Origin: Rhizoctonia solani | Lineage: Eukaryota; Basidiomycota; Agaricomycetes; Cantharellales; Ceratobasidiaceae | Direction: 5' to 3' | Assembly (NCBI RefSeq): GCF_016906535.1 | Contig: NC_057375.1 | Span: forward strand, 496,001-560,000 | DNA length: 64,000 nt | Part shown: one piece after another, positions 1,128-61,885 of the stretch | Numbering within the stretch: position 1 is the stretch's first letter | Layout of the letters: every line of letters begins with the position of its first letter | The notes under the pieces: model-generated | Database searches by the model: none | What the model saw: the letters and a program-made list of their open reading frames with translations, nothing else | What the model was told of the DNA's origin: nothing | Translations under genes and position numbers: made by a program

Positions 1128-2332
1128 TTAGTCTTTTCCCAACCCTTCCTCTTCTGCTACCTTGGCCACTTCCTTGATCGTGGCTTTCCAACCATTAGGG
1201 CATTGTTTGATGCCATGCCCTTTTTGGCCGCACTTGACGCAAAGGCCAGATGCGCGGCGGCGGTCCCTTTCTTCCGGGGTGACGTAGTTGGGATCCTCGG
1301 ATAGGCGGACCCTGGTGGTAGTGGTGGAGGTAGTGGCCGCGGTGGCCAAGGGCTTGGCAGGGAGCTTCTTGGGACGGTTCTCCTTGTTCTCCCGACAAAT
1401 GTTGTCAATCTTGATGGAGGCAGCAAAGATAGCCTCTAACTCGTCGGGAATACTGTCTTTGGTAGACAGGAGTTCTTTGACCTTCCAGTGAAGACTGCGT
1501 GTGAATTGGGCAATATATGCCTCCTTGTTCCAGTTGAGTTCCGCCATGAGATTGCGGAATTCCGTGACATACTCCAACGTGGTTGTGGTCTGAGTCAACG
1601 CGGCAATCTTCCTGGCAGCCGCCCTTTTGGCATCAGGGTCTGCAAATGCCTCCTTAAATTTGGCCGTTAAGGCCGGGATGGTGGTCGGCGGGTTGCCCTT
1701 GCCCTTGATGATGGCTCCTATGACAGGGAGTGCCCAATCGGCTGCCTTTTCTGTCATGTGGTAAAGTATCCACACAACCATTTGCTCCTCCTTGTCAAAT
1801 TGGTCCCTGTGTAGGGCCACCCAGAGCAGCATGCGGTCCAGCCATTGCGTGGCCTTGCGTCCCCTAATGTCTCCTTTATAAGGGTTGGGGAGGTCCATCT
1901 TGGGTCTTTTTACGCTGGACCCTGCGTCAAAGGGGGTGAGGGAGCTGAGTGACCGCCTAGGCGTTCCCTGAGGCTCTTTTTTGGTTGCCTTGGCTCTTCT
2001 TTCTCCTTGGAGTCAAACCCTGTACCCCTTGAAGGGCGGAAGGGAGCCTTGAGCCCAGGCCTAACCGTGCCTGGAGTGTGGGTTTCCCCTCCTGAGTGGG
2101 TAGGAGGGGTGACAGGCCCAGTTGATGGGCCAGGCTTGGTTTGGGCTCCGCCCTGGTCCTTGTCACCAACAAGGTTGTTGGTTTCCTTGCATATAGCGGT
2201 GAGCTGTGTGATTTGCTTGCCTTGTGATTTGATTTGGTCCTGCAAGGACCCGACTGTGGCTGTGAGGGCTGTGATAGCCTTGAGGAGAGCGGTAAGGGAC
2301 GGCTCTGGTTCCATCCTTGGCAAGTCTTGCAA
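1128..2332 (-). pseudogene. Ty3/gypsy gag with a frameshift
   Basis: Capsid/nucleocapsid gene of the younger copy. The N-terminal part (2,332-about 1,975) matches the start of the intact gag of the other copy, with a short predicted coiled coil ending in a Pro/Gly-rich stretch. The C-terminal part (1,898-1,128) carries the capsid-like domain and one zinc knuckle, CVKCGQKGHGIKQC (C-X2-C-X4-H-X4-C), that binds RNA. The two halves are in different frames. The homologous frame switches at a run of seven A (minus strand) near 1,977-1,983, after which the original frame reaches a stop at about 1,910. The other copy is open through this point, so a one-base indel in the A run is the simplest explanation. 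Confidence 0.85.
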
Positions 2333-2844
2333 AGGGGGAGATGCGCTGCAAGAGGGTGGTAGGGAGTGGGTTGGAACGGAGCGTCTAGAGGAGCGACTGG
2401 AGGGACAGGAGTATGGGTGTGGGGCGCCAGAGCGTGTGGAAGGAATATTGGAGACGGCGTGGGGGAAGTGGTGCCTATATCAGGACTTATGGGCGGTTTT
2501 TGTGTAGTGTGGGCGCTAAACCTTTGCGTCAAGCACCTAGCGTTGGATAGTCCCTACAACAAATCAACAGATCTGGCAATCGTGATATGAGCGGGTTTTC
2601 TACAAGCGGGTGTTTCAGCTGACTAAGGTCGCTAACTACTGTGTTCCGGCGAAACACGTGGTATGCGGGGGATTAGAGTCCTTCTGCCTTATAGCAATTT
2701 GGTACTACGTGAGGGTGGGGGGTTTTTGATTATTATACCCCGCAAAGTGGCCCTGATCACGTGATTTCCCTTGTGCTAGTACAGGGGATCCTCTCCTTGT
2801 CAAACAAGCCTACAGAAAGTCAATTTTACAATGTCGTACACCAC
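2333..2844 (-). other. 5' leader of the younger Ty3/gypsy copy
   Basis: Non-coding stretch between the LTR and gag, about 90 percent similar by eye to 7,020-7,543 in the other copy. Next to the LTR the minus strand reads GTGGTGTACGACATTG. A segment starting TGG directly after the LTR is where a tRNA primer binding site is expected; the same GTGGTGTAC(G/A)AC occurs at the matching place in the second copy and again at about 9,130 in the forward direction. I could not assign a tRNA. Confidence 0.55.
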
Positions 2845-3393
2845 TGTAATGTGGGTACACGCTAGTGGAGGCGGGCACTTGAGGCCGTACTACTACAAGC
2901 TTATGTAAACTAACTAACTAACTAAGGCTATCCTAATACCGCTTAAGGCGGTCTGCTACTTCTATACTACTGCATGGGGGCCTTAGGCCTGGGAGGTGTG
3001 GTAGGTGAATGTAATGGGTAAGCAACTGATACTACTAGGGGCCGGCTACTTAGCTGGCTGACTACCTTCTCTAATGAGTAAGAGACAAGGTAAAATCGAC
3101 TTGGAGTCTCCAAGCGATTTCCCTGCTGTATATATAGACAAAGCACACTATCTACATGGTCTGTGCGCGTGAGAGAAAGAAGTACAGAGGACAAATGAGA
3201 AGCGTGCTGCGGGCTGCGCAGAAGCGTGGATTTCTTCTAAGCGCCCTTGGCACGGCATCTTGGCGCGGCATCTCGGCATAATAAGCGCCGAGATCACGTG
3301 ATCGAAAAACATAAGGTATCAAGTCCGTAAAAAATACTAAAAATAATAGAAAATTTGGGCAATTCTGATGGTATAGTTAAGGAGGTTATAACA
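2845..3393 (-). repeat. LTR of the younger Ty3/gypsy copy (5' LTR)
   Basis: About 549 bp, read on the minus strand from TGTTATAACC to a TTACA end, matching the 7,544-8,100 LTR along its length. It contains a TATA-like box (TATATATA on the minus strand near 3,127-3,135) expected to start element transcription, and the palindrome ATCACGTGAT near 3,293. The ends are inferred from the TG...CA rule, the jump into integrase sequence on the right, and the putative primer-binding site on the left; a few bases either way are possible. Confidence 0.75.
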
Positions 3394-5830
3394 AATCACT
3401 ACCAGGATGGCATTGTGACCCTGGGACTTTGGGAAACCTGTGATGAAGTTGTACAAGATGGTATGGAAGGGGTAAGGAGGGACTTCTAAGGGTTTCAGGG
3501 CAATTACCGGGGCATGTGCCTGTCAATTGGCCTGGCACGCAGGGCAGCACTCAACCCATTCCTTGGCTGATGATTTCATACCTGGCCACCAGTAGGTTTG
3601 ACTTAGGAGTTCAAGGGTTCTCTGCTGTCCTGGGCGTCTGGCTAACGGTGAGTCATGGAACTCCTTCAGGAGTCTTTCTTTCAAGGGCTTGCTGTCTGGA
3701 ACTACTAGTTTCCCACAGTACCAGAGTAGATCCTCTTCCCAGTCATAATCCCAATAGGCTTTCCAAATCAAGGGAGGCGCAACATCTGCATCTTCTGTTA
3801 GGAACTGGATGATAGGTTCCAGGGACGGGTCCTCCCTTAGTCCCTTTTGGATTTCTGTGACAATCTCAAGTTCCTCTTCTGATGTGTTGACAAAAACCTC
3901 TTCTGGGAGCATGACTTCTAGTTCTGGGGGGTGGTCAACATAATCTGAACGTCTTGACAGTGCGTCTGGTTTCCCTGATTGTTTCCCTGGTCAATAATGG
4001 ATCTCAAAATTAAAATCACTCAGGAAAATGCACCATCTAGCGTGTCTCCGATTGAAGGTCCTGGCTTGCATCCAATATTCCAGGTTGCAATGATCTGTGA
4101 ACACCTGGACTGGTTTCTTGGTAGCTTCCAGGAAAATACGCCATTCTTCCAAGGCTTTAATGATAGCAAGTAGCTCCTTGTTGTGGGTGTTGTAATTTGC
4201 TTTGGCACCTGAGAAGGATTTGGACATATAGGCAATGGGGTGCAACTGGTTATCTGGGCCTCTTTGACTCAATATGGCGCCCATAGCTACTCCTGAAGCG
4301 TCTGTTTCCAGGTAATAGGGGAGCTTGGGGTTGGAATGTATCAGGACCAGGGATTGGGTGACTAGGTTCTTCAGTTCTTGGAATGCAGCTTCTTCTGGGC
4401 TATTCCATGACCAAGGGGTCTCCTTCCTTGTCAGGTTATGGAGAGGCCATGCAACAGAGCTAAAATTGGGGATGAATCTACAGAGGTAATTGACAAACCC
4501 TAGGAAAGCCTGGACCTGTTTGACTGTCTTGGGTTGAGGCCAGGATGTGACTGCCTCAATCTTCTTTTGATCCATCAAAAAGCCTGCAGGAGATATGACA
4601 ATGCCCAGGTAATTGACCGTGGTGACGTGGAAGTGGCATTTGGACAATTTACAGAACAGCTGATTTTTTAATAACCGGGACAGAACTTCCCTGACGTGGG
4701 CTGGATGTTCTTCCAGGTTTTCTGAAAAAATCAATATGTTGTCCAAGTAGATTACCACAGTAACATTGATTAGGTCCCAGAAAAGGTCATTCATAAAGTG
4801 TTGAAAGGCGGCCAGGGCGTTTGTGAGACCAAAGGGCATGACTAAATATTCAAACAACCCATATTTGGTCCTAAAAGCCGTTTTCCATTCATTGCCTTCC
4901 TTGATCCTGACATTGTTGTAACCCCAGCGTAAGTCAAGCTTTGTGAATATCTTTGCATGCCTTAGCTTTGCCATGAGGTCATCCTGTCTTGGGAGTGGGT
5001 ATACGTTCTTATGCGTGACCTTGTTAAGCTTCCTATAATCAACTACCAGGCGTAATGACCCATCCGCCTTCTTGACAAACATGACTGGGGCGCCTGCTGA
5101 GGAAGTGCTGGGGCGGATCTTGCCCATTGCTAATTCCTTGTCAATGTGTTGTTTAAGCGTCTTGGATTCTGCATTGGTCATGCCATAGATTGGTCCCAGG
5201 GAGAGTTTGGCGTCAGGAACTAGGTCAATGGCAATATCATATCCCCTGTGCAGGGGGAGGACCTTAAATTCCTCTTTGCCAAATACCCTGGCAAATTCAT
5301 GGTATCCTGCGGGTAGATCTGCTAATGGGTTGGGATCTGCTTCCTCCTCCAAGGCTATCTGGGCTTGGTCAGGGAAGGTGATAGTACCTAGGTTCCAATC
5401 TATAAGGGGTGACTCCTGAGTGAGCCATGTCATGCCAAGTATGGCAGGTGTGGTCCCAATGGGACAGACTAGAAAAGGAATGGTATGTGGGTGGCCATTG
5501 GCCAAAACCGCAAGTTGAACCTGGTGCCATATGCAACCAGTCTGGGATATTGTACCATCTAACATTCTCACAACTTGTGGATTTTTGAGTTGGGTTTTTG
5601 GTATTTTGAGTTTTTCTACTAAAGAAGGGGATATAAAGTTGGAGGTGGCACCAGAGTCAATAAGGGTTTTAATGGGATCCGTTGGGTAGTCACGCAATGT
5701 CATATCTAGGAATAGGAGTGGTTTTTTGTTTGAATCTAGTGCAATATTTACAAATTCCAAGATAGATACATGCAGTTCTAGATTAGAGACCAAGGGCTTG
5801 ACAGCGGCTCTTGGTCTCATTCTTTTTCCA
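3394..5830 (-). pseudogene. Ty3/gypsy pol (protease, RT, RNase H, integrase N-part) with two nonsense codons
   Basis: Uninterrupted from the gag overlap (about 5,946) to 3,991. Motifs in order: retropepsin LIDSGAT; RT with VDYRKLNKVTHKNVYPLP, FGLTNA and YLDDILIF; RNase H with YLETDASG, NTHNKELLAI and VFTDHCNLEY. Reading continues after a TGA at 3,991-3,993 with PGKQSGKPDALSRR, the usual RNase H to integrase linker, then the integrase zinc-binding region (H near GxxHDSP, CCPACQ). A second TGA at 3,523-3,525 follows, and then the start of the catalytic core (YNFITGFPKSQGHNAILVV), which stops abruptly at about 3,394 where the younger element's LTR begins. Both stops sit where arginine CGA is expected. 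Confidence 0.88.
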
Positions 5831-7019
5831 ACTTGTCCTGAGCAACCTTTGCAGATTCCTTGGGGGTTGCCTTCCAGCCATTGGGACATTGTTTGATCCC
5901 ATGTCCCTTCTGGCTGCATTTTACGCAAAGACCTGATGCTTGGCAACAGTCCCTTTCCTCCAGCGTGACGTAGTTGGGATCCTCTGATAGATGGACCCGC
6001 TGTGTGGTAGTAGTGGAAGTGGAGGTGGCCACGGTGGCCAGGGACTTGGCGGGGGCCTTTTTAGGCCGATTTTCCTCATTTTTGCAGCGGATGTTGTCAA
6101 TTTTGATGGCTGCTGCAAAAATGGCTTCAAGTTTGTCCAGAATGCTATCTTTGGTAGACAACAATTCCTTAACCTTCCAGTGGAGGCCTTGCATGAATTG
6201 CGCAATGTAGGCTTCCTCATTCCAGTCTAATTCCGCCATGAGATTGCGGAACTCTGTGACATACTTGGAGGTGGTGGTGGTTTGGGCCAGGGTAGCTATT
6301 TTCCTGGCTGCTGCTCTCTTGGCATTGGGGTCGGCAAATGCCTCCTTGAATTTGGCCGTTAGGACCAGGATGGTGGTAGGAGGATTCCCCTTGCCCTTGA
6401 TGATGGTTCCAATGATGGGGAGGGCCCAGTTGGCAGCCTTGTCTGTCATGTGGTATAAAATCCATACCACCATCTGTTCCTCCTTGTCAAACTGATCCCT
6501 GTGGAGGGCAACCCAAAGAAGCATTTGATCAAGCCACTGTGTGGCCTTCTGTCCCCTAGTGTTGCCTTTGTAGGGGTCTGGAAGCTCCATTTTGGGTTGT
6601 TTTATGCTGGACCTGGAGTCAAAAGGGGTAAGGGAACTAAGGGAGCATTTAGGCGTTCCCAGAGGCTCTTTCTTGGGGCCTTGTCTTGGGTCCTCATCTT
6701 CTTTGGAGTCAAAACCTGTTCCTCTTGAAGGCCTGAATGGGGCCTTGAGCCCAGGCCTAACCATGCCTGGAGTGTGGGTCTCCCCTCCTGTGTGGGTTGG
6801 AGGGGTGACAGGCCCAGTTGATGGGCCAGGCTGGGTTTGGACTCCTCCTTGATCCTTGTTGCCAAGTAAGTTGGCAGTCTCCTTGCATATGGCTTTAAGC
6901 TCAATGAGCTGTTGGCCTTGGGCTTTGACTTGGTCCTGTAAGGACCCAACTGTGGCGGTGAGGGCTGTGATAGCCTTGAGGAGAGCGCCAAGGGACGGCT
7001 CTGGTTCCATATTTGGCAA
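5817..7019 (-). CDS. Ty3/gypsy gag (intact, 400 aa)
   Basis: Capsid-nucleocapsid precursor of the older copy, a single open frame starting MPNMEPEPSL. Residues about 10-50 form a short heptad-like segment; about 60-130 are Pro/Gly-rich; about 145-300 form the capsid-like domain typical of Ty3 retrotransposon gag; and near 370 there is one zinc knuckle, CVKCSQKGHGIKQC. It ends in TGA at 5,817-5,819 and overlaps the pol frame by about 130 nt. Pol lies one base back, so a -1 ribosomal slip on the A-rich GGAAAAAGA just before the stop is the likely link. Gag would assemble cytoplasmic virus-like particles of the transposon. It is intact although its pol is broken, so it might act in trans. Confidence 0.88.
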   Translation of the reverse strand: MPNMEPEPSLGALLKAITALTATVGSLQDQVKAQGQQLIELKAICKETANLLGNKDQGGVQTQPGPSTGPVTPPTHTGGETHTPGMVRPGLKAPFRPSRGTGFDSKEDEDPRQGPKKEPLGTPKCSLSSLTPFDSRSSIKQPKMELPDPYKGNTRGQKATQWLDQMLLWVALHRDQFDKEEQMVVWILYHMTDKAANWALPIIGTIIKGKGNPPTTILVLTAKFKEAFADPNAKRAAARKIATLAQTTTTSKYVTEFRNLMAELDWNEEAYIAQFMQGLHWKVKELLSTKDSILDKLEAIFAAAIKIDNIRCKNEENRPKKAPAKSLATVATSTSTTTTQRVHLSEDPNYVTLEERDCCQASGLCVKCSQKGHGIKQCPNGWKATPKESAKVAQDKLEKE

Positions 7020-7543
7020 GTCTTGCGGAGTGGGTGATGCGCTGCAAGAGGCTGGTTGGGAATTGGTTGGAATGGAACGTCAAGAGGAGCGGCTGGTAGG
7101 ACAGGAGTATGGATGGGGGACGCCAGAGCGTGTGGATGGAATAATTGGAAACAGCGTGGGGGGTAGGGTGCCTGATACAGGACTTATGAGCGGTTTTTGT
7201 GTAGTGTGTGGGCGCTAAACCTTTGCGTCAAGCACATAGCGTTGGATAGTCCCTACAGCAAATCAGCAGATCTGGCAATTGTGATATGAGCGGGTTTTCT
7301 ACAAGCGGGTGTTTCAGCTGACTAAGGTTGCTAACTACTGAGTTCCGGCAAAACTTGTGGTATGCGGGGGATTAGAACCTGTCTGCCTTGTAGCAATTTG
7401 GTACTACATGGGGGTGGGGGATTTTTGATTATTATATCCCGTAAAGTAGCCCCAATCACGTGATTTCCCTTGTGCTAGTACAGGGGGACTTCTCCTTGTT
7501 GATCAAGCCTACAGAAAGTCAATTTTACAATGTTGTACACCAC
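7020..7543 (-). other. 5' leader of the older Ty3/gypsy copy
   Basis: Non-coding region between LTR and gag. It aligns with 2,333-2,844. Next to the LTR the minus strand reads GTGGTGTACAACATTG, the presumed primer-binding region. It contains AATCACGTGATT near 7,456, matching ATCACGTGAT near 2,756 in the other copy. Confidence 0.5.
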
Positions 7544-15305: not shown

Positions 15306-17750
15306 TTACACAATCTCGGGCATCTTTGCAATCTTCTTCAGCTCAATGACCACCTCATCCATCGACAGTCGGTCTTCAGGGTTCTGTTTCCAGCATTTTT
15401 CGAGCAATCCCCACATCTCGGTCGGTCGGTATGCATAGGTGTTAAACTCTAGGTGGTCCGCACGGGTCGGTGGACCTTGCATCACTTTGTTCATGACAGT
15501 GATCGCTTGTTTGTGCTTGTAGTATGGAACAGACCCACTAACAATCTACGTGGACCATATGAACGATTAGACACGAAGGGAGGAAAGAGAAGAATCACCG
15601 ACCTCGAGAGTGGCCATGGCCCTGCAAGTCGCAATAATTGCGTCAAAATGAGCTCAACATGGGTACGACATTTGCTCACCATCCCCAGACATCGCAGGGT
15701 GTTTCCAGCACGGGCTCCTCAGCAAACAGCTCTGGCGCCTACAGAGACCAGGATCAGACTACAAAGCGATGATGTGGAGCCTGGTTAGGCGACTTACCAT
15801 CCATCGCTGAGCTTCGGTCTTGCCAGTCATTACCGTTCCAGGTAAGCCACTGTTCTCAACGTTTTCCAGTGCCTGTTTATCGTTCGTCAGCCAAAGACCT
15901 ACAAACCGACGATTCAAGTCCTTGCCTTGGTCAACCCAAAGCCGCCAAGCATGCCCCCTCCACTGTCAGTGATTAATATATTGTCGCCCTTCATCCCAGA
16001 ATGAACAGCCGGAGGATGTCTGTTGTGCAGGTACTGCAGTCCGAGCGCTGCGTCGGTGACCTAACGCCATGTGAGCCCAGGGAGAACCATGGCCGAGCTA
16101 CGGTGACGACGTACTATGCGCAGTATGTTCTTCTTCGCCCCCGCATTCTTCCTGTACTTCCTCAGATATGTCATCTGGTACAGTATGACGTGGTCAGTAA
16201 ATGCCCAAGTGACCGGAGATCATATACATACAGCATCAAAGTTCTTCATCAGGGGTGACACCATGTATCTACAATGTTTCAAGCCGGTCAACCTCGGTCG
16301 GTTTTGGCTCAGAACCGGACTCACAGTTGGAAGTGCTCAGTCCCCTCAAACGCCTCCATCCCAATCCCATAGAACGGTAACGTATAGTCCGAGCGGAAAT
16401 CATACCACAAGCTCGCGATGCGCATGAAACGCCTCGAGTAATGTTCCACCAACTCCCTCTCGGCCATTCCGAGCCTAAACACCTTTTTTGCCACCCTCTC
16501 TCCGCCGAGGAATGATGCGGTGTATATATCGCACGTGATACCTGTTTTGATTGGGACCTTTGCGTCAAGGATGCATTGCCGGCCCAGTAGGAGTTTGGGA
16601 GGAAGTTGGAGCTTTGTGACGGACAGGATTGTGCGAACGATTTGCTGTGCGTCAGCATAGTCGTCGACGGTAGTTTTGGATTGTGCTTCCAAGACCTTGA
16701 TCGAATGGTTAGATGAGCTGATATAGGACTCGAAATGACGAGTCACTTACCAAAGTTTTATCGTTGAGAAGCTGCTGCAGGACACCAAATATCATACCCG
16801 TGTTTTCAAGAATCTGGTCTTCTTTATGGCTCATTTCTTCCAGGTTTATGTTGAACTTGGTCAGCTCGCCCTTGAGCTTCTGAATATCCCTTGCTTCCTG
16901 CTGCTGGACGGATCGGAATTCCGATACCCATTGTGCCTGTGCCACATCTGTAGCATACTATAATGAATTGTCAGTCGACTGTATGACTAGGGTCCAAGTC
17001 GCACGCACAGAGAACATCTGCAGACAGGTATCGAGTTCACTGAACAACTCCTCGATTTCGTCGCTGATGAGCTTCGACTTCAGAAAAGTAGAAAAATCGT
17101 TCATCTCGTTGTAGTGCTGAGCACGCTTTTGTATCTTGTTCAGCGTTCTGCCAATCGAGCCAAAAATAAGCCAGATAACAATAATCAAAGGTGAGAAGGA
17201 ACGTACTCTTCAAGCATATGTGCGCCTTCGTTGATGCGAGGGTAGTATTGGTGGCCGTTGTTTGTGACTTGCGCCCCAGCAATACGCAACACCATCACAC
17301 ATCGCCCTTGCAGTAGCTTCCATTGTTCCCTGTCGTATTATTGTAAGCTGTGATTGCTTTGCGAGTGTGATTTCGCTTACTTGTTTACCCGTGATTTCTC
17401 AACTGCCTGGAATACAGCCGTCAGACATTTGACTAGTGGTCCGATATAAGGCACCGGTGCAAGCTCGGCCGTAACTTCAGCTAGAGATAGGGCACACTGT
17501 ATACCTAGCGACGCCAGCGCCCTGTGTTCGTTCTCAGGAGTCGTCTCGCGGTGGGTAGAACCGTCTGCGGCGTGGTCTGTGTCATCAGTCATTGTGACAT
17601 CTGGTGACTGAGGAGGTGCCGAGGCCGGCCGCACCGGTCGATCACCTCGAGCTGGGGTCAATGACCTCTCAGATCCTGAAAATAATCTCGGTGTCAATCG
17701 CTGGTAGTAAAGTCCGAATAATGGAAACACAAACCAAATAAATGTGGCAT
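15306..17750 (-). CDS. MLKL-like protein: N-terminal helical bundle, coiled coil and TKL-type pseudokinase
   Basis: About 600 aa in roughly ten exons. Start ATG at 17,750 (MPHLFGSERSL after a 60-nt intron 1). Residues about 60-200 (ALSLAEVTAELAPVPYIGPL, LLQGRCVMVLRIAG, FSTFLKSKLISDEIEELFSE) resemble the four-helix N-terminus of MLKL that permeabilises membranes in animal necroptosis. A helical linker follows (QQEARDIQKLKGELTKFNIN). The C-terminal kinase fold has VAKKVF (the VAxK lysine kept), LPFYGI, YMVSPLM, GLQYLHNRHPPAVHSG, RWMAPELF, DVWGWAMATLEIVSG and CWKQNPEDRLSM. The catalytic loop reads HSGMKGDN instead of HxDxKxxN, and DFG is GFG, so both catalytic Asp are Gly. One intron near the GFG (TKA) uses a GC donor. 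I infer a signalling pseudokinase, not an enzyme; membrane-killing activity is unproven. Confidence 0.85.
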
Positions 17751-19228
17751 TTCAGTGTAGGAGAGGAGAGAAATGGTGTTCCTTGTGCTTTCGTCATCTT
17801 TATCTACGTATGCGTGGATGGGTTTTGGGTAGAGAACGCAAGAAGAAAGGACGGATCATGCCGGCGTCTATCTTGACAGTGGCGTTGAGTGCATATCCCA
17901 TAAATGGCAAATTGACCGTCAGTGAGAGATACAACGTGTTTGATTGGACAGCCTCTTTAGCGACGCTCGCTATGGTCGAGCCCAGTCCAGGTGTGATCGT
18001 AGAGTTTGAACCCAAGAGGACCAGCCATACGAAATGGGCCTAATTTGTAATAGACAGTGGTTAACGATTCAATTTGACATCTCGCTCTTTCCACTACTAT
18101 CACGAGCCTTTGCAGTCCCGTCGTGCCCCTGTGGTGGCATACTTAACTGTATAGTTTCCCAGTCGGGAGGGCTATTAAGATCGCCTGGTGACTGAAGAAC
18201 GAGGCCCAGGCAATCACACTACCCTGTCCACTCACCTCCATAGCTCATCGAGCTCCGGCGCTTTTCACGGCGCTTATAATTACCGGTCACTCAGTGACTC
18301 CTTTGTTAGTCAAATTAAAATAGTTAAAACTATCGGCAATCTTTTACAATCTCCATAAAGTTATGAATATTTGTAGTAGTAAAAGTCAGCAGAAGAGAAT
18401 AGATAGTAAACAATGTGCATTGACTCGTAGTATAAATGCTCATGAATCGAGACTATGCACTATTGGACACAGTATGTGGGGCCGCAAGTCAATGACTAGA
18501 CATTCTTTACTCACGTCAAGTAGAGGACCTACTTTATTTTGAGCCAAGATAGCATTGAACCCACTCGTCTTTTTGAGCCAGAGGTTCGTTTAGATCAGTC
18601 CTCAGAGTGCCTGCCTCGCCGATTCTGAACACGTTGTGGAGGGTGGGGAAGAGGCTGGTCATATTTGGAGGGTCCTAGAACAGCAAATGAAACCCGCGGT
18701 TTCTTACCCACCCGTCGCTCGAAATGTCCAATATGCCATTAATCGTGTTGTAAGTTTCTAACTGGTCTGAAGAGGAGGAGGGTTCAGGTGAGTAGGGTAC
18801 CTTCCACACTTGGATTGTCGACTCCCCTGGGCCCAAGGTAACATGTGCGCTGTTGGGTCAATATGCCACCGAGTGAATCATACCCTGATCTTTAAGTGGC
18901 TCATATGCAGGAGACCCGTCTTTGACCCCTAGCACACTAGCATGGGACAGCCCCAAACAGTACTAACACGGAAGCCCCTTGCCGCCGAGCCTTTGCTCAG
19001 ACTTATAGGCTTTTGGATGTCTGGGCTTCGAGATACAATTGAATCCCCTAGTAGCTGTTTGAAGTAAGCCCTCACTTCTGTCAATGCGGGTCCAAATGTG
19101 TCTTTCCCCCTATACTGGGAGGGATACCGAAAGTATTTTCCTTGTAGCCCAAGAGATGAGAAACAAAGATCTTCTTGCTACCGGGACAGATGTTCATTTG
19201 GTGTTGGGAGACTTTAAAGACAGTTTGA
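17751..19228. other. Intergenic, upstream of the pseudokinase gene; possible decayed kinase sequence at the right
   Basis: The left part is the promoter of the minus-strand pseudokinase. From about 18,560 rightward there may be remains of a plus-strand gene leading to the kinase tail at 19,229, but I could not join a frame: only scattered short matches (for example a DVWAS-like codon string near 19,016) are visible. Confidence 0.4.
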
Positions 19229-19351
19229 GAGCTCATTCAAGAGTGTTGGGAACAAACCCCTGAAGACCGACCAAGTGCACCCAGCCTTGTAACTCGGTCG
19301 GAACAGATCCAACTTTTTTATTCAAATGACATAGACGTTAATGATAATTAG
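19229..19351 (+). pseudogene. Decayed C-terminal tail of a TKL-type protein kinase
   Basis: The plus-strand frame reads ELIQECWEQTPEDRPSAPSL and runs to a TAG at 19,349-19,351. C-W-X4-P-X2-R-P is the invariant end of a protein kinase domain (subdomain XI). The codon directly upstream is TGA where the family has Trp (LW-ELI), and no continuous kinase frame can be followed further 5'. It is therefore the rump of a second kinase gene, about 1.5 kb from the pseudokinase gene and on the opposite strand. It differs in sequence from the tail of that gene (CWKQNPEDRLSM), so it is a diverged relative, not a recent copy. Confidence 0.6.
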
Positions 19352-26415: not shown

Positions 26416-27736
26416 ATGTCAACTTCGTTGGGAGTCATCCTAGGCAAGACAATACCGTACTTGTTTCAAGCAAAATTGATAATCATTTGCTTATAGCTGC
26501 CGCCAATGCGACCTCCAGCCAACGCCCCAACCCTGCAGAACATTTGCCGTTCAACTATGTGCCCACTGGATGGGTCGGCATTCTGTTCCTGGTTCTCTTT
26601 GCTTTGACCACCAGTGCGTCTCCTTATCCGAAAGATGGTAAATGGCTAATATCCTTTTCAGCTGGTCATCTGTTTCAAGCTGTTACTCTCAAGACGACAT
26701 ACATGATACCAACGCTTGTATTATGCGGCGTCGGCGAGTTGTTGGGCTGGGCCGGACGTTATTGGGGACATGTGAACCCGCATAACGGCGACGCATTTAT
26801 GATGCAGTGAGTAGTCTGTTATAGATTGGCCACAACTCTGCTGATTCAATGGCCGACAGAATTACCACTACTATTATTGCGCCTTCGTTCATGACCGCAG
26901 CCATGTTCTTGATTCTGCCGAAAATTATCAATGAGCTGGGTACGATGTATAGCCGAATGCCTCCACGCCTTTGTAAGTTTGTTTTTTTTATCGACTATGG
27001 CTTCGTTTCTAATGCCCTGGAAATAGATTCCATCATCTTCATTACCGCCGACGTGACCGCACTGATTATTCAAGCTGCTGGTGGGGCCATGGCCTCCATT
27101 GCACGTACTCCGGAAGGCTCAGAGAGAGGAGGAAAAATTATGCTTGGCGGCATCGTCATCCAGCTCAGTAAGTTAATTTCTTTTCTTCCTTTTCTTCCGT
27201 ATGCTAAGAGCTCGCACTCTAGTCGCTGTGATTCTCTATACCATTCTTGGTCTTGAATTCGTTATCCGTTTCAGCTATGACCGACCCGCTCATCCCAAGA
27301 TTATAAGTGATCTACGCAAGAACTCCGGATGGGTCGGTGTGCCCCGGGGTATCGTAAAAATGCTCACCGGTCTTGCGATTGCGACGGTGTTCATTATCAT
27401 TCGGAGCATCTATCGTACTATCGAACTCACCGATGGATGGTGAGTCCTGTCTAGTTGCTCAAGACGCATATATACTAATTTTATTTTTAATTTTCCCAGG
27501 AACGGGACGATCATCTCCACCGAGAGTTATTTCAACTGGTTTGATGGAGCACCGATTTTTGTGGCCATGTTTGTGAGTGTGCGTTCTTTTGACCCCGTTA
27601 GTGGTCCTCACCGAGTACGTTCCAGACATTCAACGTTTTTCACCCTGGAAATTTGCTGCGAAACTTGGAGAGCAGCAATCGATTGCCAATTTCTGCATAC
27701 TCGTCCAGCGATCGAGTCGAGATGACTCGGGTGTGA
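26416..27736 (+). CDS. RTA1-like seven-transmembrane protein (copy 1)
   Basis: About 315 aa, start MSTSLGVIL at 26,416, stop TGA at 27,734. RTA1 family (fungal 7-TM membrane proteins including lipid-translocating exporter and aminocholesterol-resistance proteins). Membrane segments are visible in order: WVGILFLVLFALTT; YMIPTLVLCGVGELLGWAGR; APSFMTAAMFLILPKII; IIFITADVTALIIQAAGGAM; VILYTILGLEFVIRF; IVKMLTGLAIATVFIIIRSI; and a last one around GAPIFVAMFTFNVFHPG. Family signatures RYWGH, PKIINELG, FITADV, QAAGGAMA and RSIYRTIEL are present. Seven or eight short introns. The first intron uses a GC donor (CTAG/GCAAGA), while the paralog at 33,399 uses GT at the same place. Likely in the plasma membrane or endomembranes; ligand unknown. 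Confidence 0.88.
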
Positions 27737-29181: not shown

Positions 29182-31639
29182 ATGCCGCGCTTGCCTATAG
29201 TCTGGGGAGCAGGACTCTCCATCGCCCTTGGATCCCTCCAGACCACGGTACTTCCCCCAGCATTTATCGTAGCGGCTCCTTCAGTCATAGATTATATGCT
29301 ACCTCACGAATTGGCGTCTAGGCGACTGAAGTTGGTTGTAGAGCTTTCATTTGTCATTCGCATAGTTTTGGCATTGGCGATATTTGTCATCTTGCGAATA
29401 CTTATAGGAGAGTATCAGCGCAATAATGATAGGAGCAGATTTGGTCCAAATGTGATGGAAGTACCTCGGGTCAATTTTAGGTGGCCGTTTAATTTGGATT
29501 TCATTCGTTTTGATATGAAAGTGATGAAGACAGGTATGTGTTCCAGTCATTGAAGCTAGTATCGGCCTCACGATCCAACCTATAACCTCCCAGGCTACTG
29601 CGGAGCCACTTGGGAAATCCTGGTTGCCCAGTACGGGAATATTTTCAACTTGAGGCTACTCAAACAAGATTTTGTAAGTAAATCCACATCTTGCCCAACC
29701 TTTGTTAACCAAGTTTCTTAGATTCTTACCGTTGAACCTGAAGTTGTTAAACATGTGCTTAGTACCGACTTTCATAACTACGTCAAGGGTAATTGAGCTA
29801 AGGCCTTCATAAAAGGTACATGTATTGACAGTAGCTAGGGAACGATATTCAAGGAATGATGTTCAGTGTTCTCGGCGGGGGGATATTCAACAGCGACGGT
29901 AATTTTTCGATTTTAGTTCAAGTTTTCCAGGAGAGGTCTAATCCATTTCATTTATACAGGTGAAGCTTGGAGGATCCACCGAAGCATGAGCCGACCTTAT
30001 TTCACTCGGATCCGGGTCACTCACTTTGATAACTTTGTCCGTCACACCGACATAGCAATATCTAAGCTACTCTCCCGGATGGCCGAGCCTAATCGACCTG
30101 CAGTCGATTTCCAAGATCTCGCATGCAGATTTACACTGGACTCGGGAACGGAGTTCTTATTTGGTGAAGACGTAGGCTCCTTGGATGCACCGCTGTTGTA
30201 TCCGCGCGAAGAACCAAAGGATGACAGCACTTCATTCGGAGCAGCTTTTGCACGGGTTCAAAATCATGTTACACATCGAATTGGGCTACCAGTGCTTTGG
30301 CCTTGGATGGAATTATTTTACGACCGCACCGCGGAGGATATGAAGATAATCAATGCTTATGTGGCCCCGATACTGGGGAAACGTGAGAAAAGCAATACTA
30401 TCTTGGGGACTGGACTTAAGCCGTCAAATAAGGATGGACAGGCTTCCACAGATACTCTTTTACGCCATCTATTCCAATTTACCGGCGGTGAGAATATTTC
30501 TTTTGAAATGGATACATACTAATTCAGAATGCAGATGAGACCGTGATTAGGGATGAGATCATCAATATCCTGGTCGCCGCTCGAGATACCGTAAGTAGAA
30601 GTAGAATCCGATTAGGCACAGTGGCACTCATTTTAGTCGCAATTGGTTTGGTAGACAGCTGCGGCTCTGACTTTTGCTGTATATATGCTATCCCAGAACC
30701 CAGAGGTTATGAATAGACTCAGAGATGAGATCATTAGTCACCTTGGGGCCTCAAGTTACCCTACCCCGGAAGACCTAAAAGAAATGAAGTATTTAAGGGC
30801 CTTTCTCAACGAAACACTTAGGTAATTTGCCATATTTTTTTAACTGGCACCCCATTGACTCCTATCGTAGGTTATTCCCGCCTGTTCCAAGCAATACACG
30901 AGTGGCAACTAGGTCAACAGTTCTGAAGCTCAAGGGGGGAAACTATTTCATTCCTGCTGGAACCCGGTGAGGTTGAATTACATTCAAGCTATGATTCTTG
31001 CCACTTATTGCCATGCAATTCAGCATTATTTGGTCTACCTTACTTATGCACCGGCGTAAAGATCTATGGGGCGTAAGTTCAGTTCAAAACTATAGCTTTA
31101 TCAGGTTTAATGTTACAACTATGGCTACAGCCTGACGCGGATAAATTCGACCCCGACAGGTGGCTCGACGACAGATTCAAAGCATACGTAATGCAAAATC
31201 CGTTTATATTTTTACCATTCAATGCCGGGCCACGAGTCGTAAGACTATCTAAGTACATAGTGGTATATCCTTTAGGCTAACTTTTCGATACTTGCTAAGT
31301 GTCTTGGCCAGCAGTTCGCGTATAAGTAGGCAATCACCCTTCACCCCTTCAGTGCAGTTCTTTAACCGAGCTTTAGCGAGGTATCCTTTTTCCTTTGCCG
31401 TCTACTTCAGAGGGTTGAATCAATTGAGCTCGCCCCTGATGCCCAACCCCAAGAAAGCTTACCTCCACTTGAGTGGAAGAACGGAGCTGGTCGCCGATCT
31501 TTCGAGAAGGTTTGGCCGAAGCAACATCTTACAATGTACTGTGATGTAAGTCTTGACCGTACAGCTTTAAGCCAATTACTGACGTTGGCAATTTCAGGGA
31601 GGGCTCTGGTTAAGGATGAAAGAGGTAGATATTGCGTGA
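29182..31639 (+). CDS. Cytochrome P450, CYP63/CYP52-like
   Basis: Membrane-bound monooxygenase, about 590 aa, roughly a dozen exons. Start [11 protein letters not shown] (29,182). Two hydrophobic N-terminal segments anchor it in the ER, a feature of CYP63-type enzymes. Visible marks: I-helix [19 protein letters not shown] with the acid-Thr pair; K-helix ETLR in [30 protein letters not shown]; and the heme loop [19 protein letters not shown], which is split by an intron just before the Cys, with another intron in the Asn codon. The C-terminal IELAPDAQP and the ending [13 protein letters not shown] match relatives. CYP63/CYP52-clan enzymes hydroxylate alkanes, fatty acids and aromatic compounds; substrate here unknown. 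All splices keep frame, so the gene appears intact. Close paralogs lie at 59,487-61,885 and 62,893-64,000. Confidence 0.88.
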
Positions 31640-59486: not shown

Positions 59487-61885
59487 TTACACAACTCTCG
59501 CCTCTTTCATCCTCACCCAAAGCCCTCCCTAACACACATCATCAACATCAGTACTACTCACAAAACCACTCGCGCAAAACAGCCTACTCACATTACAATA
59601 CAACGTCAGATGGTTCTTGGGCCAAACCTTTTCGTAAACCCTTCGGCCAGTCCCGTTCTTCCATCCGGGCCGAGGGAGAGTTCCTACTGGGTGAGCTTCG
59701 GGCACGAGCTCGATGGTTTCGACTCGTTGGAGGAGGCGGCAGAGGAAGAATGACGCTTCGCTAGGGATGGGTATAGATAAGTCGCTGGTTTAGTGCAATA
59801 TGGGTAAACTACTCACTTGTATGCGAATTGTTGGCCCAGGCACTGGGTGCACAGTTAACATACGCCTATTGTGAGATAAGATGGCTTACGATTCGCGGTC
59901 CGGCATTAAAAGGTAAAAAGATGAATGGGTTCGGCGTGACGTATTTCTTTAACCTATCGTCGAGCCATCGGTCGGGGTCAAAGTTGTCCGCGTCGGGCTG
60001 AGATCACAAACATCAGTGTGTCTATGTACAACGAAAGAAATTCTTACACCCCACATCCTTCCGACGATGCATCATCAAAGTAGACCAAGTCATCCTAAAC
60101 CACGATATAACGAAATCGAAAAGAGCCCATGATAGCGGACGCACCTCGTTCCTGCGGGAATATAGTACCGCTTCCCATTTATATGGAGTACTGTCGACTT
60201 GGCTGCCGCACGTACGTTAACGGGGACAGCCGGGAACAATCTACGAATAATCAGCCGAGGAAATCAACATTGCAAAGAAATTTCCCAACCTGAGTGTCTC
60301 ATTGATCACAGCTCGCAAGTATTTCATTTCCTTCAAGTCATCAGGAGTCGGGTGATTCGAAGTTCCAAGACGCCCGGTAATTTCGTCCCGGAGTCTGCTC
60401 ATAATCGCCGGGTTCTCAGCTAGTATGTACACGGCAAAGGTTAAAGTCGTGGCGGTCTATACGAGGGTATCAGTACCTGGACCAAAATACATCACGTTCA
60501 TCTCACCGTATCACGAGCAGCGACCAAAATGTTGATAATCTCGTCCTTGATGACAGATTCGTCTGATTTTTTGTTAGACCCACGAAGACCAACCCTGTCC
60601 ATGTACTCACCTTGAGTAAACTTGACCAAATGGTCAAGAAGAGTGTCTGCATCCTGATCTCCTTCATTTGTCGGTTTAGACTCGATATCAGAACCCCGCT
60701 CTAGCTTTTTTCTCAGTATCGGTGTCACATATGCGTTGATGATCTTCATATCCTCCGCAGTTCGGTCCCAAAATAGCTCCATCCAAGGCCAAAACATTGC
60801 CAGCCCGAACCGTTGCATAACTTGACCCTGGGCTCGAGAAAACGCAGCGGCAAACGAAGCACTGTCATCAGCAGGCTTTCCGTGCGGATATGGCAATGGC
60901 GCATCCAACGAACGAGTATCTCGACCAAACAGGAATTCAGTTCCGGAATCGAGGGTAAAACGAGCAACTAGGTCCTGAAAGTCAACTGCGGGGCGGCTCG
61001 GCTCGGATACTCGTGAGAGGAGCTTGGAGATGGCGATGTCGGCGTGTCGGGCAAAGTTATCAAAGTGGGAGATGCGGTCTCGCGTAAAGTATGGTCGACT
61101 CATGCTTCGGTGGAATTTCCAAGTTTCGCCTATAAATGCGTTTTATCAGAGTTCTGCTGAAAGAACTTGAACACGAAATTACCATCGCTATTAAATATCC
61201 CATTTCCTAGAAGGCTAAACATTATTCCCTGTATATCGGACCCTGGGTGCTCCAAGTTGGTATACCATGCTGAGAAGTATGTCACCTTGCTCACCTTTTT
61301 CATAGCTATTAAAGTCTGTACTCAGGATCGCCTTTACGACCTCGGGCTCGACGGTCATGATCTAAAGAGGGTGAGTGCTGATAAGCGGTCGCAAAGTCCC
61401 GAAACTACTTGATCTTGTCCGAATAGTCCTAAGTTGAAAGTATTCCCATGCTGTGGAATCATGATCTCCCAAGTAGTGCCAAATACTCTGTAAACATAAA
61501 TACCTTTACTGCCATTCCTAATTTCAAGCTTACCATTCTGCATAACATTTGTATCGAAAGGAATAAAGTCCAAATTTAGAGGCCATTTCAACTTTATCTT
61601 TGGTATTTCTACTACATCAGGACCAAATTTCTTTCTGTCAAGCTGGCGCTGGTATCTTCCAATAGAGGTGCGGATAATCGCAAGAACCCCCAATGCTATA
61701 ATACTACGGACCGCAGTCGGAAGATCCAGGAACAACCTTAGAAACTCGGAGGCCGAATCACGGGGCAGTGCTTGTTCGAGAAGTAAAGGAACTGACACAG
61801 CGAGTGCAGGAGGTAAGACCAAGGATGGGAGAGAGCCGAGCACAATTGAGAGTCCCGCTCCCCAGGTAATTGGTGAACGAGGCAT
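59487..61885 (-). CDS. Cytochrome P450, CYP63/CYP52-like (paralog 2)
   Basis: About 590 aa, start [20 protein letters not shown] (61,885), TAA at 59,487-59,489. Parallel to the gene at 29,182-31,639 over its whole length, with the same exon borders. Motifs: I-helix [19 protein letters not shown] (intron inside), [37 protein letters not shown] (intron before the Cys), and end [13 protein letters not shown]. The two N-terminal hydrophobic stretches are kept. The C-terminal [11 protein letters not shown] departs from the usual ELAPDAQP. Likely an ER monooxygenase acting on lipids or xenobiotics. Appears intact. Confidence 0.88.

Follow-up and report, generated by a model that had tools for sequence, protein, structure and literature searches.

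Animal MLKL is the necroptosis executor in which, as described, phosphorylation of the pseudokinase frees a helical bundle that permeabilises the membrane (PMC12881547, PMC11476962). The N-termini of MLKL, of HeLo/HELL proteins and of plant CC-R proteins are all described as acting on membranes (PMC12881547, PMC10951266). In plants, the AtMLKLs are described as carrying pseudokinase domains, and there is also a description of a wheat MLKL whose kinase is intact (PMC10951266). MLKL homologs are stated to exist in fungi and plants, one of Basidiobolus being named (PMC11476962). In basidiomycetes, BaMLKL domains were described in NLRs, in an article whose available portion mentions kinases only in the reference list (PMC9815663). 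HELL domains in proteins with kinase or pseudokinase domains appear in one sentence, apparently of a figure legend, with no family described in the portion available (PMC12881547). We have analyzed a window (the whole stretch of DNA considered) of 64,000 nucleotides of Rhizoctonia solani (assembly GCF_016906535.1, contig NC_057375.1, positions 496,001 to 560,000) and found on its minus strand a gene for an MLKL-like pseudokinase. We give a probability of about 0.6 to its coding for an MLKL-type cell-death executor that acts in the fungus itself. We found no account of this fungal branch in the open-access literature, judged by title or abstract start and with most subscription papers outside that scope. 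Fungal MLKL homologs as such are already in print.

Gene model, catalytic motifs and domain layout

The rebuilt gene has 13 exons, separated by introns of 51-59 bases, and codes for 591 amino acids. Its coding sequence runs from 17750 to 15306, which are exactly the limits given in the first-pass annotation. A start at MTDDTDH (558 amino acids) was given up because the homolog P0015 opens with MPHLFG, the peptide coded by the additional first exon. The features of the gene are the following:

17750-17735, 17675-17381, 17329-17207, 17147-17009, 16957-16751, 16695-16325, 16268-16232, minus strand: exons 1-7 of the MLKL-like pseudokinase gene
16174-16115, 16060-15926, 15872-15798, 15738-15680, 15621-15603, 15545-15306, minus strand: exons 8-13 of the same gene
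16880..17436 including introns, minus strand: MLKL_N match, residues 86-217 of 591 (PF22215, 31.4 bits, cut-off 27)
15342..16449 including introns, minus strand: kinase-fold domain, residues 343-580, the N-lobe starting earlier (PF07714, PK_Tyr_Ser-Thr, 91.7 bits)
16483..16485, minus strand: VAIK Lys retained (VAKK), codon AAG; Lys in 115/117 aligned homologs
15980..16003, minus strand: HSGMKGDN catalytic loop, HRD Asp replaced by Gly (GGG, 15997..15995); HRD Asp kept in 2/110 aligned homologs
15935..15943, minus strand: GFG in place of DFG (DFG-Asp codon GGC, 15943..15941); Gly in 108/111, Asp in 0
15873..15925, minus strand: intron 9, GC-AG, directly 3' of the GGFGLTK codons, placed by the gene model and by comparison with paralogs and deposited proteins

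The replacement of both catalytic aspartates by glycine, claimed in the first-pass annotation, can be read directly from the codons GGG and GGC, and the features that it listed as kept (the VAxK Lys, APE and CWxxxPxxR) are present as VAKK, MAPE and CWKQNPEDR. To these losses must be added that of the alpha-C Glu, which is Ile in the window protein and was kept in 2/115 aligned homologs. All counts refer to the best 120 of 200 homologs found, all but three of them from Rhizoctonia or Ceratobasidium, with gapped cells excluded; mis-splicing affects the motifs of some deposited homologs (P0002, P0003), whose aberrant residues there were counted as they stood in the alignment. At the HRD Asp position there was Gly in 88 rows, Asn in 14 and Asp in two (P0052 and P0078). 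Asp was found at neither the HRD nor the DFG position in 107 of the 109 rows with both positions aligned, and the catalytic-loop Asn was kept in 104/108. Because the same substitutions run through the whole family, the losses are not due to chance. The C-terminal part is therefore, as in MLKL, a pseudokinase with the Lys kept and HRD and DFG altered. In the activation segment, 71 of 80 full-length homologs share a Thr, which is a candidate switch.

Both altered motifs are coded by exon 9, which closes at the GC donor of intron 9. The deposited protein of this locus, P0002, is spliced differently through the exon-9 stretch and has neither motif. The GC donor goes along with deposited gene models in which the catalytic-loop exon is missing or garbled, and is probably the cause of their discordance. 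We read this intron as GC-AG because in three paralogs of the same genome a GT-starting intron stands directly after GGFGLTK, and because the deposited P0001 retains HSGMKGDN...GGFG, although without the residues of the following exon. The presence of HSGMKGDN...GFG in the mature protein should be taken with caution, as it would depend on this splice reading.

The first-pass annotation had also proposed that the N-terminus resembles the MLKL bundle. The Pfam matches, a profile alignment to a solved MLKL chain, structure comparisons of homolog models and the family-wide conservation together support the MLKL-like layout and the pseudokinase reading. For the N-terminus, the PF22215 match is above the cut-off, and the lack of any such similarity, named there as evidence to the contrary, is not what the MLKL_N profile gave. 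Among 52 chosen family members, the kinase models were matched in 52/52 and MLKL_N in 13/52 (E <=0.01); the N-terminal assignment is clear for the window protein and borderline across the family. The Pfam scan of the window protein found no NLR domain, the C-terminal part being the kinase fold. In the predicted model of the homolog P0005, helices 180-212, 230-249 and 256-272 would form a linker of the brace type. In that of P0081, predicted helices 11-21, 25-29 and 33-40 stand before the part aligned from MLKL residue 2 onward. In a Foldseek comparison of a homolog model with the PDB, MLKL ranked first across both domains by a small margin, and the VIA structure comparison gave a modest match to MLKL, with plant AtMLKL3 (6ka4) second best. 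With the whole P0005 model VIA returned kinases only among the 50 matches listed, and Foldseek with the P0081 model gave no match at E <=0.001. A single-sequence search of the PDB sequences did not have MLKL in the best 60 of 1457 matches, whereas a profile search did reach it, and the profile was aligned to the solved MLKL chain. The six-frame search of the R. solani genome with PF22215 gave 0 matches, which says little because the MLKL_N coding is split over several short exons.

When compared with animal MLKL (4btf, 6lk5), the window family has in common the helical bundle, the linker helices and a pseudokinase in which the VAIK Lys and the loop Asn are kept and the HRD Asp is lost; at the DFG Asp position both have Gly (MLKL AGFELRK, window protein GGFGLTK). 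Unlike animal MLKL, the family has extra helices before the bundle, has lost the alpha-C Glu, is multicopy and has no RIPK3-type activator identified, and its kinase domain does not group with that of MLKL (AU p 0.005, with one MLKL row; see the next section). The plant MLKLs (AtMLKL3, 6ka4) have the same domain order as the window protein, at 10% identity in the VIA alignment. A bundle of the MLKL_NTD type is shared with BaMLKL, HeLo and HELL (PMC9815663, PMC12881547), and an additional N-terminal helix, described for BaMLKL, is found in the P0081 model. Those domains, however, are described as N-termini of NLRs or as short amyloid-controlled effectors, whereas in the window protein, which is not headed by the bundle as an NLR, the bundle is joined to a pseudokinase.

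Paralogs, relatives and origin of the dead kinase

A query of 45 amino acids from the catalytic loop gave 15 matches at E <=10 in the R. solani genome, at 14 places. At eight of these places the DFG Asp is replaced by Gly (the window gene, C13:973k, C13:982k, C6:2113k, C13:1453k, C13:2028k, C13:2035k and C10:76k). C10:343k has HGSLQGSN together with DFG, and a further five carry HRD and DFG and are ordinary kinases. The N-terminal region was found by the family profile at C13:973k, C13:982k, C6:2113k and C13:1453k. Between the window gene and three paralogs nonsynonymous differences (pN 0.196-0.241) were far below synonymous ones (pS 0.745-0.790, saturated or nearly), indicating constraint; because of this saturation no dN/dS ratio is given for most comparisons. 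Tandem arrays are suggested for Ceratobasidium by locus tags close in number (FRC09_005824, 005825, 005829) and by the location of several members on equal-sized contigs.

Kinase-like genes lie on the opposite strand near two of the paralogs, C13:982k (G000:C13 985.8-987.8k, L057) and C6:2113k (G000:C6 2115.5-2116.7k, L058), one of them with an intact DFG; they may be partners or merely kinase arrays. A neighbouring activator kinase was considered and set aside: the family profile found none in the 9.9-kb slices that hold C13:973k or C13:1453k, and the window has just a short kinase-tail fragment, ELIQECWEQTPEDRPSA (19229-19348, plus strand; family profile E 0.0008; PF07714 13.3 bits, below the cut-off).

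Wider relatives were obtained by searches with the C10:343k protein and P0139, which reached Botryobasidium, Tulasnella, Amanita, Marasmius, Mucidula, Gymnopus, Rickenella, Scleroderma, Daedalea and others. Ten were scanned for MLKL_N: P0263 (Gymnopus), P0272 (Daedalea) and P0242 and P0252 (Amanita) were above the cut-off, P0247, P0257 and P0261 below it, and P0259, P0262 and P0265 gave no match at E 0.1. Twenty-four new proteins (P0241-P0275) had 70% or more of the N-terminal region aligned, a coverage that alone is no proof of an MLKL_N domain; of these, 11 had Asp at both positions, 12 had lost only the HRD Asp and one had lost both. Full-length relatives from Marasmius and Mucidula, which are other Agaricomycetes, retain all the catalytic motifs. 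The Agaricomycete proteins P0257, P0259, P0261, P0262 and P0265, of similar length and with 31-37% identity over 95-98% to P0139, keep the alpha-C Glu, HGD and DFG that the window family has lost. The wheat MLKL described with its kinase intact (PMC10951266) is a parallel to these fungal forms. The first-pass annotation had proposed that the homologs' loops be compared, and held that HxD and DFG kept there would reduce the changes to local mutations. The close family has lost both, and more distant Agaricomycete relatives keep both; this dates the loss and does not refute the pseudokinase reading. The DFG Asp is also lost outside the window family, in P0154 and P0156 (Tulasnella) and P0269 (Mycena), with LNGFSLSK, LTGFSLSK and IAGFGLSH.

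Four trees were built: A, B, C (which includes MLKL 6lk5) and D, with wider sampling. Motif columns were present in A and C and removed from B and D, and A, B and C were built without P0137 (tandem kinases) and P0063. The window family was one clade at 100/100 in all four (25 rows in A, B and C, 13 in D). The view that the HRD Asp was lost once, at the base, with the 38 dead-loop rows in one clade (A 86/68, B 88/82, C 96/89), found no support in tree D, in which intact and altered forms are interleaved and a minimum of 7 changes is required for the HRD Asp and of 3 for the DFG Asp. In this tree the 40 MLKL_N-type rows were grouped against 9 others at 93/59 only. In tree C a set of 50 kinase rows, fungal where named, stood apart from MLKL 6lk5 at 100/100. 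P0162, with MLKL_N at 43 bits, an intact kinase and Sel1 repeats, groups weakly with MLKL (87/46, long branches). An approximately unbiased (AU) test rejected MLKL and the window family as one clade (p-AU 0.00486, with a single, long-branched MLKL row), even though it included the motif columns, which would sooner favour joining them; a pseudokinase ancestry common with animal MLKL was thus not found. As intact-motif Agaricomycete relatives exist and the AU test rejects the join, the dead kinase state seems to have arisen in fungi apart from animal MLKL. The window protein resembles MLKL by architecture and is not an MLKL ortholog.

Elsewhere in the window, a broken stretch upstream of the gene (18675-19177, minus strand) looked by eye like WD40 repeats with an NLR-type end (TIQVWKV, SDGWVRNRG); the WD40 reading was dropped, as two frames of the stretch matched nothing in Pfam at E 0.1. 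At 29917-30519 (plus) and 60501-61142 (minus) stand two exons that resemble each other and are cytochrome P450-like, with PF00067 at 20.6 (below the cut-off) and 31.4 bits. There is an exon of an RTA1-like protein at 26825-27253 (plus; Pfam 71.9 bits), and Ty3-type retroelement frames at 1131-7079 (minus), namely reverse transcriptase, RNase H and two gag frames.

Proposed function and alternatives

The executor reading builds on what was computed here: the two-domain layout, the triple loss with the Lys kept, the constraint between paralogs, the multiple copies and the separate origin of the dead kinase. By analogy with the characterised systems, the membrane-directed bundle (MLKL_N/HeLo-like) would be kept inactive by the linker helices and the dead kinase domain. 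An upstream signal might then alter the pseudokinase and so release the bundle; it might come from a binding partner, from an NLR, or from another kinase that phosphorylates the activation segment. The released protein would oligomerise at the plasma membrane and permeabilise it, in the service of non-self recognition or defence. Membrane killing, gating by the pseudokinase and a role in incompatibility would thus be its putative properties.

The most serious alternative is a pseudokinase scaffold or allosteric regulator, with the helical domain as an oligomerisation or interaction module and the signal passed on without membrane damage. It fits the data equally well up to the membrane step, the full-length relatives with intact kinase motifs indicate that the layout can serve signalling, and the kinase genes near C13:982k, one with an intact DFG, speak for it too. 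Against it, the characterised relatives of such N-termini (MLKL, HeLo/HELL, plant CC-R) are described as acting on membranes (PMC12881547, PMC10951266). We consider the scaffold possible and rather doubtful.

It is very improbable that the protein is an active atypical kinase using displaced residues: some pseudokinases do retain activity, and the VAIK Lys and the loop Asn are kept, but three catalytic acidic residues are gone and a compensating loop acid is not conserved (HRD+6, counted from the His, is Asp in 64, Glu in 12 and other in 32 of 108 aligned rows). A decaying gene with local mutations, to which the discordant deposited models of this locus, the frame break in the catalytic-loop exon of C6:2113k and the GC donor of intron 9 could point, is hardly credible when the frame is open over 13 exons, the same substitutions run throughout the family and pN is far below pS.

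The executor reading has a broader version, for which we see about even chances: a parallel making of the necroptosis executor. An MLKL_N-kinase of mushroom-forming fungi, in several lineages still kinase-competent by its looks, would have been turned, independently of animals, into a multicopy, triply dead family of Rhizoctonia and Ceratobasidium, with the DFG Asp changed to Gly as in MLKL and competent relatives surviving. The reason for a dead kinase in a necroptosis executor has been studied mostly in animals. Among these fungal proteins, forms with intact, partly dead and fully dead kinases coexist, which would allow one to test in what order the residues were lost and why a dead fold is kept. 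Current models of somatic incompatibility or defence in basidiomycetes are described as resting on ascomycete research (PMC8229728), and the family provides candidate cell-death genes for either.
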